DNA of 64,000 bases, from the NCBI GenBank assembly GCA_017625695.1, contig JAGAKI010000020.1:1-64000 (forward strand), given 5' to 3'. A program made the position numbers and the translations under genes. Source of the DNA: Clostridia bacterium. GTDB lineage: Bacteria; Bacillota; Clostridia; UMGS1840. A model generated the notes under the pieces. It was not told where the DNA came from and made no database searches. It was given only the letters and a program-made list of their open reading frames with translations. Positions 27,220 to 50,875 of this stretch are shown one piece after another. The first letter of the stretch is position 1; each line of letters starts with the position of its first letter.

Positions 27220-27709
27220 TCTGAAAGACAAAAAAATCAAGCTGATATTGATATTGTTTTTAACAGGTGCGATATTTCTTTTGCTTCCTCCAAACGAAAA
27301 AAAAGAGGAATCTTCCCACGTACAAGTGAATATGATAAATCATCAGGAGCGTACAAAAAAAGAGCTGGAAAAGCTCCTCACCAAGCTGACAGGAGAAACC
27401 GTCAGAATTGTGTTCACCCAAAAAGACAGCGGGGACTTCAGCGTAATCACCGAAGAAAGTCTTTTGGTGGAATCAAACCCGGAAAACGGTACCTCTACTT
27501 TGCAAAAGGATACCAAACCCATCACCGACAGTAACAAAAATATTATGATAAAAAACCGTCAGCAGCCGGCAATTAAGGGGGTATGTATATTTTATTTCGG
27601 CACCTATCAGAAAGAAGTGGAAAATCTGCTGTATCGTGCTGCCAAAAGTGCATTGGGAGCAGAGATTCATACTGTAGAAGTGATTTTTAAACCAAATGAA
27701 AGGAATTGA
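27179..27709 (+). CDS. spoIIIAG: Stage III sporulation protein AG
   Basis: A 176-residue protein with one transmembrane helix (about 22-40, LILILFLTGAIFLLLP) and an extracytoplasmic ring-building domain (LEKLLTKLTGETVRIVFTQ and PAIKGVCIFYFG). I start it at 27179, where GGAAAGGAG lies nine bases upstream. The frame is open for 26 more codons, which overlap spoIIIAF and lack a site. SpoIIIAG forms the large ring of the feeding channel. Confidence 0.92.
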   Translation: MKWYTPLLKFLPRNLKDKKIKLILILFLTGAIFLLLPPNEKKEESSHVQVNMINHQERTKKELEKLLTKLTGETVRIVFTQKDSGDFSVITEESLLVESNPENGTSTLQKDTKPITDSNKNIMIKNRQQPAIKGVCIFYFGTYQKEVENLLYRAAKSALGAEIHTVEVIFKPNERN

Positions 27710-27714
27710 TACTT

Positions 27715-28221
27715 ATGCTGTTATTACACAAACGAAAGGTGGCAGCAGTCATCTGTACTGCTCTGCTGGCCACGGCCGGCGTTGTCAATTACATCAACCA
27801 TACCGAGTCAGAATCCGTGTCCCTTTCTCTGCCCCCTGCTGATGAAAGCTACGATGAATCTACCAACTATGGAGAAGCCAAATATGTATCTACAGACATT
27901 ACCGTAGAGAAAAACCGCAGCGAAGCAGTAGCACTGTTGAAAACTGTTTCAGAAGATGAAAGCGCAGACCCGGTGAAAAAAGCCGAAGCACAAAGTGAAA
28001 TCATCCGAATTGCCAAAGATATGGAAAAAGAAGCTGTGGTGAAAGAAATTTTAACAGAAAAAGGATTTTTGGATGTCAGTGTATACTTAAACTCACCTCA
28101 GGCAACCGTCAGCGTAAAATCTCAGGGATTAACCGATATGCAACTTGCTCAGATTCGTGACACCTTGCGTAAGGATGCCAACATTGAACCTCAGAATCTG
28201 AAAATAATTGAAACAAAATAA
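27715..28221 (+). CDS. spoIIIAH: Stage III sporulation protein AH
   Basis: A 168-residue bitopic protein with an N-terminal helix (about 9-25), a linker rich in acidic and polar residues, and a C-terminal YscJ/FliF-like ring-building domain (about 95-168: EKGFLDVSVYLNSPQATVSVKS). In Bacillus it pairs with forespore SpoIIQ across the septum. ATG at 27715 follows AAAGGA. Last gene of the canonical operon; no terminator separates it from what follows. Confidence 0.94.
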   Translation: MLLLHKRKVAAVICTALLATAGVVNYINHTESESVSLSLPPADESYDESTNYGEAKYVSTDITVEKNRSEAVALLKTVSEDESADPVKKAEAQSEIIRIAKDMEKEAVVKEILTEKGFLDVSVYLNSPQATVSVKSQGLTDMQLAQIRDTLRKDANIEPQNLKIIETK

Positions 28222-28226
28222 TGACC

Positions 28227-28255
28227 TTGTGATTCTTTTTCCTCTTTGCTACAAT
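28227..28255 (+). promoter_or_regulatory. Possible promoter before the portal-like gene pair
   Basis: TTGTGA (28227-28232), 17-nt spacer, TACAAT (28250-28255) fits a sigma-A promoter. The -10 GCTACAAT also resembles the sigma-E -10, but the matching -35 is poor. Read-through from spoIIIAH is equally possible because no terminator lies between. Confidence 0.5.
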
Positions 28256-28303: not shown

Positions 28304-28546
28304 ATGACAAACCAAGAAAAACAGGAGTATTTGACACAACGAAGATATTTCTATGCTGTCACTCCTACCTACTACGGATCGCCCAAGCAATACGCAAAAA
28401 AGAGGAAAGAAGCAGAGGAAAAAGAAAAGCGTAAGAAAAAAATTCTCGATTATCTGAATCAGGCGAAAAAATCTGCCATCAAGCGAGGGATGTATAACCA
28501 AAAGCCCTATCAGAAGGTCGTATCGGAGGCAAATAAAAATGTCTGA
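28304..28546 (+). CDS. Small basic charged protein upstream of the portal-like gene
   Basis: An 80-residue protein with a long lysine/glutamate-rich helical stretch (about 28-56, KKRKEAEEKEKRKKKILDYL) and a tyrosine-rich N-terminus. No membrane segment. GAGGTG lies upstream of the ATG, and the 3' end overlaps the portal-like gene by 8 bp, so the two are translationally coupled. I recognise no family. The charge pattern would suit a nucleic-acid-binding or scaffold-like partner, which is conjecture. Confidence 0.6.
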   Translation: MTNQEKQEYLTQRRYFYAVTPTYYGSPKQYAKKRKEAEEKEKRKKKILDYLNQAKKSAIKRGMYNQKPYQKVVSEANKNV

Positions 28547-30383
28547 AAAACTGGCTCAATTTGTCTGCCGTGAATTTACCGACCGTGCAGAAAAAAGAAA
28601 TCAGCTGGAACTAAAATGGAATCTGAATATCAATTTCTTAAACGGTAACCAATACTGTGACGCCGACTACAATCAGAAAAAGATTTTCTCCATTGAAAAA
28701 CTGTATGATTATCAGGAACGAGCTGTCTACAACAACATTGCACCGATTATTGAAACCCGTATCGCCAAGCTATCGGCCGTGGTTCCTCAAATCGGTGCAA
28801 TGACAAACAGTTCCGACTTAAACGACTTGTCCAATGCAAAAATCTCAACAGCAGTCTTACGAAGCATCCACAAACAATTAAATTTCCCCGAAAAAATCGC
28901 CCATGCCGTTTCCATTTCCGAAATGCTGGGTACCGCCTTTTATAAAATTATCTGGCAAAAAGACCATGGAGAGTTTCTCTACCGGTCCGAAAAAGAAACG
29001 GTGAAAACCGGTGAAGTGGATACCATCGTTTGTTCCCCCTATGAAATTTATCCGGAAAGTCTGTATGTAGAGCAGATTTCCGAACAAAAAAGCATCATTC
29101 ACGCTCATCCCTACCACGTGGATGAAATCAAAGAAAAATGGGGAGTTACCGTAGAACCGAATCGGGTCAATCTGTTTTCTATGACCAATATCACCAACGT
29201 AACCGGAGGACTGGGATGGACAAGTACTGCCGAAAGTGTTAGTCAGGAAACCAAGGACAACTTTGACATCGTGTTGGAATATTACGAAAAGCCAACCAAA
29301 AAGCATCCCGACGGCAGACTGCTGATTGTGGCATATTACAACGAGGTATTATTGTACGAAGGGCCCCTCCCCTATGTCAACGGCAAATATCACACCCGTG
29401 GATATCCCTTTGTAAAACAGACTGCCATTAACCGTCCCGGCTGTTTTTTCGGTATTTCCATCATCGAGCGTCTGATTCCCATTCAGAGGGATTACAATGC
29501 CATTCAAAACCGTATCAACGAATACTTAAACCGTGCGGCGTTAGGAATCCCTGTAATTGAAGACGGCAGCGTGGATGTGGATAGTTTGGAATACTACGGT
29601 ATGCCTCCGGGAATGCCCATTGTATACGGCAGAGGCAGTGAACCGCCTCGTTTTATGGACACACCGGCTCTGCCCTATAGTTTTCTTTCCAAACAAGACC
29701 GTCTGGAGGAAGCTTTCATTTCGATTTCCGGCATTTCGGAATTATCACAGTTTTCACGGGCGCCTACCAATGTAACATCCGGTACCGCTTTGGGAATTTT
29801 AGCACAGCAGGATGATACCCGTCTGGCAGTCAGTGCAGAAAACATCCGAAATGCGGTTTTGGAAGTGGCAAGGCAATGGCTTCGTCTGTATCAGCAATTT
29901 GCTTTGTTTGAGCGAATGCTGAAACTGGGCGGTGATGAACTGGATAACGCTCTGATCCGTTGGAACAAAAGCAATCTTTTGCCCGAAAATCTGGAATTAA
30001 CCACCCAGAATGAAATTGAGAATTCTCTGCTTGTCAAACGGGAACTGATTCGGGAATTATATCAGATGGGGCTGTTTACAGATCCGAAATCCGGAAGAAT
30101 TACAGCTTGTGCCAAATCAAAAATCCTTTCTCTGTTAAAAATGGGAGACTGGGAAAATCAAATGGAATTAGAAACCTTAAATTCCACCCGTGCCACCCGT
30201 GAAAACTTAAAACTAAGAGAAGGCATTTCTTGCTCTGTGAAAGCCAGAGACCAACACGAAATCCACATTGAAGAACACACAAAATATCTTTTGACCGGAG
30301 AATTTGAAGAACTTGAAAAAACAAATCCGGCAATTGCGGAACTGTTTGAAGCACATCTGAAAGAACACGAAGCTTATCTTTAA
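28539..30383 (+). CDS. Phage portal-like protein, stand-alone
   Basis: A 614-residue protein that reads as a dodecameric portal of the P22/podovirus type: an N-terminal helical region, a wing/stem core with QKDHGEFLY..., the PGCFFGISIIERLIPIQRDYNAIQNR block (about 307-332) preceding the stem helices, the TNVTSGTALGILAQQDDTRL segment (about 408-427), and a long helical C-terminus. Portals are the DNA-translocating vertex of tailed phages. No terminase, protease, capsid or tail gene is nearby, the frame is intact, and base composition matches the spo genes before it. I infer a domesticated portal retained for a host role. The portal call rests on motif recognition, not a search. Confidence 0.7.
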   Translation: MSEKLAQFVCREFTDRAEKRNQLELKWNLNINFLNGNQYCDADYNQKKIFSIEKLYDYQERAVYNNIAPIIETRIAKLSAVVPQIGAMTNSSDLNDLSNAKISTAVLRSIHKQLNFPEKIAHAVSISEMLGTAFYKIIWQKDHGEFLYRSEKETVKTGEVDTIVCSPYEIYPESLYVEQISEQKSIIHAHPYHVDEIKEKWGVTVEPNRVNLFSMTNITNVTGGLGWTSTAESVSQETKDNFDIVLEYYEKPTKKHPDGRLLIVAYYNEVLLYEGPLPYVNGKYHTRGYPFVKQTAINRPGCFFGISIIERLIPIQRDYNAIQNRINEYLNRAALGIPVIEDGSVDVDSLEYYGMPPGMPIVYGRGSEPPRFMDTPALPYSFLSKQDRLEEAFISISGISELSQFSRAPTNVTSGTALGILAQQDDTRLAVSAENIRNAVLEVARQWLRLYQQFALFERMLKLGGDELDNALIRWNKSNLLPENLELTTQNEIENSLLVKRELIRELYQMGLFTDPKSGRITACAKSKILSLLKMGDWENQMELETLNSTRATRENLKLREGISCSVKARDQHEIHIEEHTKYLLTGEFEELEKTNPAIAELFEAHLKEHEAYL

Positions 30384-30411
30384 AAAAGATGAAAAATTCA
30401 GCAACAACAGG

Positions 30412-30440
30412 TATATTATCAATAAAATGGGAATATAATG
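30412..30440 (+). promoter_or_regulatory. Possible sigma-E-like promoter of the DUF2508 gene
   Basis: GTATATT (30412-30418), 14-nt spacer, AATATAAT (30433-30440). The -35 matches six of seven and the -10 six of eight positions of the sigma-E consensus. TATAAT at 30435 without a good -35 is the sigma-A alternative. Confidence 0.4.
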
Positions 30441-30480
30441 AATCAGAAAAAACATTTTTGACAGAAAGGCGGTTTCCGGG

Positions 30481-30756: not shown

Positions 30757-30795
30757 AAGAAAAACGGAGCTGCTATTGGCAGCTCCGTTTTTCTT
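30757..30795. terminator. Bidirectional terminator between DUF2508 and mgtC-like genes
   Basis: A perfect 17-bp inverted repeat (30757-30773 with 30779-30795) around TATTG, with A/T runs at both ends so that it works on either strand. Confidence 0.92.
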
Positions 30796-31435
30796 ATAAT
30801 TCACTTTTTAATGCGCAGTCATAAGGAATGGAACGAAGAAATTCTTCTTCATTGATTTTCGCAGGGATTTCAATGTAAAATACATATGTAAACACACCAT
30901 TCTTTTTCACAATGTTAGTATCAAATACTACAATTTTATTTTCTTTGAATTTTTCTTTGATCATATCCGCATTTTCAATATTCTTAACCGTCAAAATTTT
31001 GCTTTTGGGTTTTTCGGCAAAGGGCATCCGAAAATGCAGCAAGGTCTGCGCCAGAAGAATCAATATTGTACCGGAAATCCCGATGACATACATTCCGCAC
31101 CCGATTGCCATCCCGATTCCGGCAGTCGCCCAGATTCCGGCAGCTGTGGTCAGACCACTGATGGTCTGATGCTTCACAAACACCATACCGGCTCCCAAAA
31201 AACCGATTCCGCTGACAATCTGTGCTGCAATTCTGGCAGGGTCACGGTTGGTAATATTGGGAATATTTAAAAATCCGTAAATAGAAACCAACATCATAAG
31301 ACACGAAGCACATGCAACAATACAATGGGTTCTCAACCCTGCTTCTTTTGCACGGTTGGTACGCTCCCAACCAATAACTACGCCGCAAATACTGGCAACT
31401 ACCAGACGAAGTACATACATAAAATACTGTTCCAC
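30794..31435 (-). CDS. MgtC/SapB family membrane protein
   Basis: A 213-residue protein with four to five N-terminal transmembrane segments and a C-terminal cytoplasmic ACT-like region (about 140-213). RLVVASICGVVIGWERTNRAK, DPARIAAQIVSGIGFLGAGMV and TISGLTTAAGIWATAGIGMA are the conserved MgtC/SapB blocks. I choose a GTG start (31435) because AGGAG lies exactly eight bases upstream; the ATG seven codons earlier has none. Members help cells cope with low magnesium, without being proven transporters. A 2-bp overlap with the terminator marks its stop. Confidence 0.88.
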   Translation of the reverse strand: MEQYFMYVLRLVVASICGVVIGWERTNRAKEAGLRTHCIVACASCLMMLVSIYGFLNIPNITNRDPARIAAQIVSGIGFLGAGMVFVKHQTISGLTTAAGIWATAGIGMAIGCGMYVIGISGTILILLAQTLLHFRMPFAEKPKSKILTVKNIENADMIKEKFKENKIVVFDTNIVKKNGVFTYVFYIEIPAKINEEEFLRSIPYDCALKSEL

Positions 31436-31565
31436 TTTCATTTCTCCTATCATCATAAAATATACGATACCACAGTTTCAAAAAAATGTCAAATTCTTTC
31501 TCCGAAAACAAAAAAGCTCAGCATATTTCTCGGGATACTGCTACTATATGCATGAAAAGTGGTGT

Positions 31566-50039: not shown

Positions 50040-50130
50040 CGAACATTTGTTTTCCTTTTGTGGTTGCATTATAACACAAACATTTGTTCTTGTCAATACT
50101 TTTTTTAAAAAAATTACAAACAAATGTTTG
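50040..50130. promoter_or_regulatory. Three LexA (SOS) boxes between yneA-like and lexA
   Basis: CGAACATTTGTTTT (50040-50053), CAAACATTTGTTCT (50077-50090) and CAAACAAATGTTTG (50117-50130) all fit the Gram-positive SOS box core GAAC-N4-GTTC with at most one substitution per half. Box 2 lies in the spacer of the yneA-like promoter, box 3 overlaps the lexA -35 hexamer, and box 1 is in the yneA-like leader. This predicts joint repression of both genes by LexA. Confidence 0.88.
50068..50096 (-). promoter_or_regulatory. Sigma-A promoter of the yneA-like gene
   Basis: TTGACA (50096-50091), 17-nt spacer, TATAAT (50073-50068): full consensus on the minus strand, with a LexA box filling the spacer. 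Confidence 0.88.
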
Positions 50131-50248: not shown

Positions 50249-50875
50249 ATGGAAATAGAATTAACCAAAAAACAAAAACTGATTTACGATTTCATCAATG
50301 ATTTCCAAGAGAAAAACGGGTACCCTCCCACAGTTCGTGATATTTGTATCGGTGTAGGACTTCGTTCCACCGCAACCGTATTTACCCATTTAAAAAACCT
50401 GGAAGAAAAAGGGGTATTAAATAAAAGTTCTTCCAAAAACAGAGCAATCTCTGTCGTTAAAGACACCGCAGACTTCATGCCGAAAGAGTCGGAAACTCCC
50501 GATATTTTAGAAATTCCTCTTTTAGGGAAAGTTGCTGCCGGAAGTCCAATCCTGGCAGTGGAAAACATTGAACGGACCTTCCCTCTTCCGCTGGATATGG
50601 CAACCAACAAAGAAATGTTTATGCTGCGGGTTCAGGGCGAAAGTATGATAAATGCCGGTATCTTAAACGGTGATTTCATTATTGTATCCCGTCAGCCTAC
50701 TGCCGAAAACGGCGAAATGGTAGTTGCTATGATTAACGACGAAGTAACCGTAAAAACCTTTTATAAGGAAGATGGATATTTTCGTCTGCAACCCGAAAAC
50801 GATGCAATGGAACCCATTATTGTCACCCAACTGACGATTTTAGGCAAGGTTGTGGGCCTGTTCCGAAAATACTAA
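50249..50875 (+). CDS. lexA: LexA repressor
   Basis: A 208-residue repressor: an N-terminal winged helix (about 1-70; ELTKKQKLIYDFINDFQEKNGYPPTVRDI) and a C-terminal S24 self-cleavage domain. The cleavage site is GKVAAGSP (about 93-100), the nucleophile serine is in GESMINAG (about 131), and the general-base lysine in DEVTVKTF (about 169). GGAG lies upstream of the ATG. RecA-stimulated self-cleavage would release the boxes upstream. Confidence 0.97.
   Translation: MEIELTKKQKLIYDFINDFQEKNGYPPTVRDICIGVGLRSTATVFTHLKNLEEKGVLNKSSSKNRAISVVKDTADFMPKESETPDILEIPLLGKVAAGSPILAVENIERTFPLPLDMATNKEMFMLRVQGESMINAGILNGDFIIVSRQPTAENGEMVVAMINDEVTVKTFYKEDGYFRLQPENDAMEPIIVTQLTILGKVVGLFRKY

Follow-up and report, generated by a model that had tools for sequence, protein, structure and literature searches.

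Genes at the Portal Locus

The window, that is, the whole 64,000-nucleotide stretch of DNA that was analyzed, encodes a phage-type portal protein behind the last gene of the spoIIIA operon, with a short ORF on either side of the portal gene (Table 1).

Table 1. Features of the portal block and of the lexA region in the window
Feature	Position	Strand	Description
spoIIIAH	27706..28221	+	Final gene of the spoIIIA operon; Pfam SpoIIIAH, 5.6e-20; syntenic in 5/5 genomes of the genus
Portal-operon promoter	28222..28255	+	TGACCTTG-N20-TACAAT (TTGTGA-N17-TACAAT, TG before the -10 box); kept in 5 genomes
ORF1, basic protein of 80 aa	28304..28546	+	Homologue at the same place in 5/5 genomes, 39–60% identical to the window copy
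Portal protein, 614 aa	28539..30383	+	P22_portal, 2.2e-16; phrog_156, 5.7e-29; predicted podovirus portal fold
ORF3, 79 aa	30481..30720	+	Present in 5/5 genomes of the genus
Block terminator, hairpin with T-run	30764..30793	+	Read from the sequence; kept in 5/5 genomes; not among the sites of the terminator scan
LexA-type boxes 5' of lexA	50040..50130	.	One mismatch to the box of the terminase operon
lexA	50249..50875	+	Pfam LexA_DNA_bind, 1.3e-17, and Peptidase_S24, 8e-37; candidate master repressor of the terminase operon

The initial annotation had described an intact portal-like gene with an overlapping basic partner directly behind spoIIIAH, and the coordinates agree with this: ORF1 and the portal gene overlap by 8 nt, and both frames are intact. 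As had also been proposed, no terminator-like site was found between spoIIIAH and ORF1 in a scan for promoters and terminators; the same scan predicted a sigma-A-like promoter in this gap (28227–28255). The portal-type identity of the 614-residue protein was borne out by its matches to P22_portal and, among the PHROG families, to phrog_156, as well as to SU10_portal of Pfam (1.6e-9). An AlphaFold2 model of the monomer (pLDDT 80, pTM 0.68) was compared with solved structures by Foldseek, with a best E-value of 5.6e-17 and TM-scores of about 0.5–0.6; the top matches were the podovirus portals of SU10, Pan3, N4, PaP3, and P22, in line with the suggested comparison with P22-type portals. As judged from sequence profiles and the predicted fold, the product is a genuine podovirus-type portal.

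No family match was obtained for ORF1 in the Pfam and PHROG searches. Its equation with the small prophage gene located between the large terminase (TerL) and portal genes was rejected, as the prophage gene resembles a transmembrane protein. ORF3 itself had no family match in profile searches either; in the sister family, it matched (E 1.4e-5) a protein that adjoins bofA and has a sub-cut-off match to DUF2508. ORF3 may thus be a distant relative of DUF2508 (YaaL) and a host gene instead of a part of the system described below. It may also be under its own control. A conserved element of the type GTATA-N18-TATA(C/A)T(A/G) lies 5' of ORF3 (30410–30445) and by eye recalls forespore sigma-F/G promoters.

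Conservation and Selection in the Genus

The genus was represented by five genomes (G000–G004, G000 being that of the window), with three of the records being animal-gut MAGs labelled 'Clostridia bacterium'. The gene order was the same in all five: spoIIIA genes, spoIIIAH, a basic ORF of 80–83 aa, the portal gene, an ORF of 76–79 aa, and a hairpin terminator, followed in four of them by a homologue of window positions 30794–31456 on the opposite strand. The portals are 75–92% identical across the genus, which, together with the complete synteny, excludes a block shared by chance. Neither the portal nor the block was matched in four genomes of the sister family.

The dN/dS values were 0.087 for the portal, 0.082 for TerL, 0.076 for the major capsid protein (MCP), and 0.12 for ORF3; the ratios are approximate since synonymous sites are near saturation. 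For comparison, spoIIIAA (0.21) and spoIIIAE (0.17) both had values above that of the portal. Vertical inheritance under purifying selection, as expected of a gene transfer agent (GTA), was evident from both synteny and dN/dS, and these data support the initially proposed domestication of the portal, which appears to be vertically inherited under strong purifying selection. The portal and mnmE both group G002 with G003, the distances of G000 and G001/G004 being less clear-cut.

Head, Packaging, and Lysis Genes at Other Loci

Searches for the large terminase and the major head protein gave matches in all five genomes, away from the portal; the strong terminase match in G002 and G004 is that of a prophage. 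The portal had been annotated as standing without terminase or capsid genes. This is true of the window, on whose contig (C4) the terminase and capsid searches found nothing, but false for the genome, which carries them at two other loci (B and C). The reading of a stand-alone portal was rejected on these grounds. With ORF1 and the portal 3' of spoIIIAH as locus A and a lysis cassette as locus D, head and packaging genes of the kind found in GTAs are dispersed on the chromosome over four loci. Host genes flank the loci, with synteny between genomes at A, C, and D; for B, synteny was seen between G000 and G003. Apart from the head genes, nothing homologous to the prophage loci was found around B, C, and D, where the flanking genes are annotated in part.

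Locus B (G000, G001, and G003) encodes a Zn-ribbon protein, TerL, a protein of about 91 aa, a TerS-like protein, and an ArpU-like activator. The TerL copies are 85–88% identical, retain the Walker A/B motifs and the acidic residues of the nuclease, and match solved large terminases (1.3e-12). The TerS-like protein of about 130 aa matched GP3_package at 1.4e-4, under the curated cut-off. The ArpU-like activator (phrog_36, 1.2e-11) is complete in G000 and G003; a contig end truncates the G001 copy. The window's genome alone encodes another ArpU-like protein (G000:C50:28261-28722, L235), which shares 44% identity with the one in the terminase operon. The TerL frame, with its protein sequence conserved, seems to extend backward into the 3' end of the Zn-ribbon gene (L067:4200-4400, L069:8900-9000, and L068 near 10490); inspection of this region by eye in three genomes showed no ATG, GTG, or TTG, which might point to a rare start codon or to a frameshift.

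Operon B was not detected in G002 and G004, whose assemblies are 77% and 92% complete, respectively. Both of these genomes carry a related prophage (L020 and L019, respectively), a coincidence with the undetected terminase operon that may be due to chance, assembly gaps, or replacement.

Locus C is the scaffold/capsid/connector operon. It encodes the scaffold protein, MCP, and proteins of 131, 176, and about 597 aa in four genomes, with a further copy in G002 cut by a contig end, and in some genomes also a membrane ORF of about 62 aa. Its neighbours are two host enzyme genes in a conserved divergent arrangement, for a class-V aminotransferase and a 2-hydroxyacid dehydrogenase. Profiles of MCP and of the 176- and 597-aa proteins had no reliable match among solved structures, and the 597-aa protein had no PHROG match of its own; a tail role for it would be a guess. 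No receptor-binding or tail-fibre protein was found in the system.

Locus D, present in all five genomes, consists of Amidase_3 and BhlA holin genes between mnmE and wecG/thyX-type genes; Amidase_3 (1.4e-41) and BhlA were found with one copy above the curated cut-off in each genome. The cassette is counted in the system because of its domains and because BhlA is present in the head-gene clusters of another family, f7.

Related Prophages and Head-Gene Clusters of Other Families

Prophage-type clusters were found in two of the five genomes (G004:C18, L019; G002:C95, L020). They share homologous TerL, portal, scaffold, MCP, and 131/176/597-type genes with the domesticated system, but their head and packaging genes are contiguous and their portals are 37–38% identical to the domesticated ones, of which they form the sister clade (support 99/97). 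No domesticated counterpart exists for a 482-aa prophage gene located 3' of the head genes. Contiguous prophages of this kind are the likely source type of the system.

A single-protein portal query gave no match among viral contigs, while an alignment query retrieved 311 portal relatives with a best identity of 43%; identity to the portals of INPHARED phages was at most 24%. A related portal was encoded in 26 of the 391 class-draw genomes. In family f7 (genomes of 0.8–1.2 Mb), portal, scaffold, and MCP genes form a compact cluster that also has two holin-type genes and is surrounded, in several genomes, by conserved host genes; f69 has a TerL-portal cluster with flanks conserved between genomes. 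The f7 clusters resemble the window's system in the portal-scaffold-MCP order, the Zn-ribbon protein, and the BhlA holin, and their portals are about 40% identical to that of the window. Conserved host flanks are common to both families, as is a LexA-type box to three f69 clusters; in contrast to the window's system, the head genes of f7 and f69 lie in one cluster and not beside spoIIIA. At L017, L075, L077, and L078, in four f7 genomes of about 0.8–0.9 Mb, the head clusters agree in their host neighbours, one of which is a germination protease homologue.

Viral contigs are interleaved between the genus, f7, and f69 groups in the portal tree, so separate domestications in different families are possible. 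The order of spoIIIAH, basic protein, and portal, suggested initially for examination across Clostridia, is kept throughout the genus but was not seen in other families: at the loci examined outside the genus, portals lie in head-gene clusters or at other sites and not next to spoIIIA.

Promoter Motif and SOS Signals

A TGAMCTTG-N20/21-(-10) block is conserved 5' of operons A and C. A genus-wide scan for it gave 18 matches, nine of which belong to operons A and C, while the other nine are all within ORFs except one in G002; two sites of the capsid operon were scored inside ORFs, in L105 (an over-extended scaffold frame) and L102 (an ORF of the opposite strand). Intergenic matches in the window's genome are those of the portal and capsid operons only. 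Because the motif was first read from the same regions, the scan is a test of specificity and not an independent discovery.

Operon B is preceded by TTGACA-N17-TATAAT and then by a LexA-type box, CGAACATTTGTT[CT]G, which has one exact match each in G000, G001, and G003. Copies with one mismatch are found before lexA in the window and at a conserved site directly before recA in G002, and a GAAC-N4-GTTC box lies near the start of the terminase cluster in three f69 genomes. From the boxes at operon B, lexA, the recA site, and the f69 clusters we infer, with good reason, SOS control of the terminase operon through LexA. That the ArpU-like protein activates operons A and C would be a guess from the function of its family.

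A Dispersed Gene Transfer Agent as the Probable Context of the Portal

Given the dispersed and conserved terminase, capsid, scaffold, connector, and lysis genes and the promoter motif in common with the capsid operon, the window portal most likely works in a phage-like head. We consider it probable, with considerable confidence, that it belongs to an SOS-induced GTA, a captured prophage head and packaging system with operons over at least four loci. A domesticated packaging system is well supported, as gene identity, dispersal, synteny, selection, and shared motifs were established directly; regulation, particle formation, packaging of host DNA, lysis, and transfer are what we infer from them. 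DNA damage would inactivate LexA and release operon B, whose ArpU-like protein would switch on operons A and C via their common TGAMCTTG promoter; a small head of podovirus type would form on the portal ring and be loaded with host DNA by TerL, and the proteins of locus D would then lyse the cell.

The capsids could instead serve in killing, in the manner of PBSX, or in an anti-phage or satellite function, and not transfer DNA. No delivery apparatus was identified, and PBSX of Bacillus packages host DNA without injecting it (PMC12946183); this reading is nevertheless rather unlikely, as the packaging enzyme is intact and strongly selected and the genes are podovirus-like, with no contractile tail found. 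We regard as unlikely a GTA coupled to sporulation, in which the portal would also be transcribed with spoIIIA in the mother cell and particles made during sporulation would be freed at mother-cell lysis. The invariable adjacency to spoIIIAH in the five genomes with no terminator between, and the f7 cluster near a germination protease gene, would fit such a coupling; against it, the portal operon has its own sigma-A-like promoter, the terminase operon has a LexA box and no sporulation signal was seen there, and the other operons are not adjacent to sporulation genes. If it were true, the mother cell would package its chromosome, and a terminally differentiating cell would donate DNA.

Portals form rings, and the initial annotation had seen in this one a new component of the SpoIIIA channel. 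Genus-wide adjacency and an operon-like layout could be read in favor of a ring in the SpoIIIA-SpoIIQ channel or of another transit device of sporulation. The claim was not supported: a complete set of partner head genes is dispersed over the genome and conserved in the genus, the promoter is shared with the capsid operon, the portal is absent from the four sister-family genomes, and adjacency was not seen outside the genus, which makes this role highly improbable. Hardly credible is a chance sharing of decaying prophage remnants, in spite of the scattered pieces and the two assemblies in which operon B was not found. The frames are intact in the copies tested, dN/dS of the main genes is below 0.1 (with synonymous sites near saturation), and the promoters are conserved; synteny and dN/dS led us to reject it.

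Comparison with Known Systems

Compared with the GTA favored here, the nearest described system, likened by gene content and proposed working, would be FpGTA of Faecalibacterium, which is podovirus-like and has two operons, the second of which includes the lysis genes (Borodovich et al. 2026; PMC12946183). Both belong to Gram-positive gut Clostridia, distribute podovirus-type genes for TerL, portal, scaffold, and MCP over operons, and have a holin and an endolysin in a separate operon; replication genes are missing from FpGTA (PMC12946183) and, as far as the flanks are annotated, from the window's system. FpGTA I differs in having TerS, TerL, portal, scaffold, and MCP in one 10.5-kb operon, next to a second operon of 5.5 kb (PMC12946183), whereas in the window's system these genes occupy three loci plus a lysis locus, with the portal behind spoIIIAH. 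The FpGTA paper makes no mention of LexA; it counts PBSX as the first known GTA or GTA-like system of Gram-positive bacteria and FpGTA as only the second (PMC12946183). A Faecalibacterium 16S oligo had no match in the class-draw genomes. The present system would add a genus with GTA-type genes over four loci and an apparent circuit of LexA and a phage activator, is a candidate for the genes behind the GTA-like packaging that has been reported in gut Clostridia, and points to more lineage-specific clusters in other small-genome families of Clostridia. It is also a worked example of how a dispersed system can be reached from a lone 'orphan' phage gene.

RcGTA-type GTAs of Alphaproteobacteria are siphovirus-like, with a gene set unrelated to that of the window's system, and are set apart from it by description. 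They share with it domesticated head genes and a distribution over several loci, and are under host control, as the window's system may be (PMC12946183 and general knowledge).
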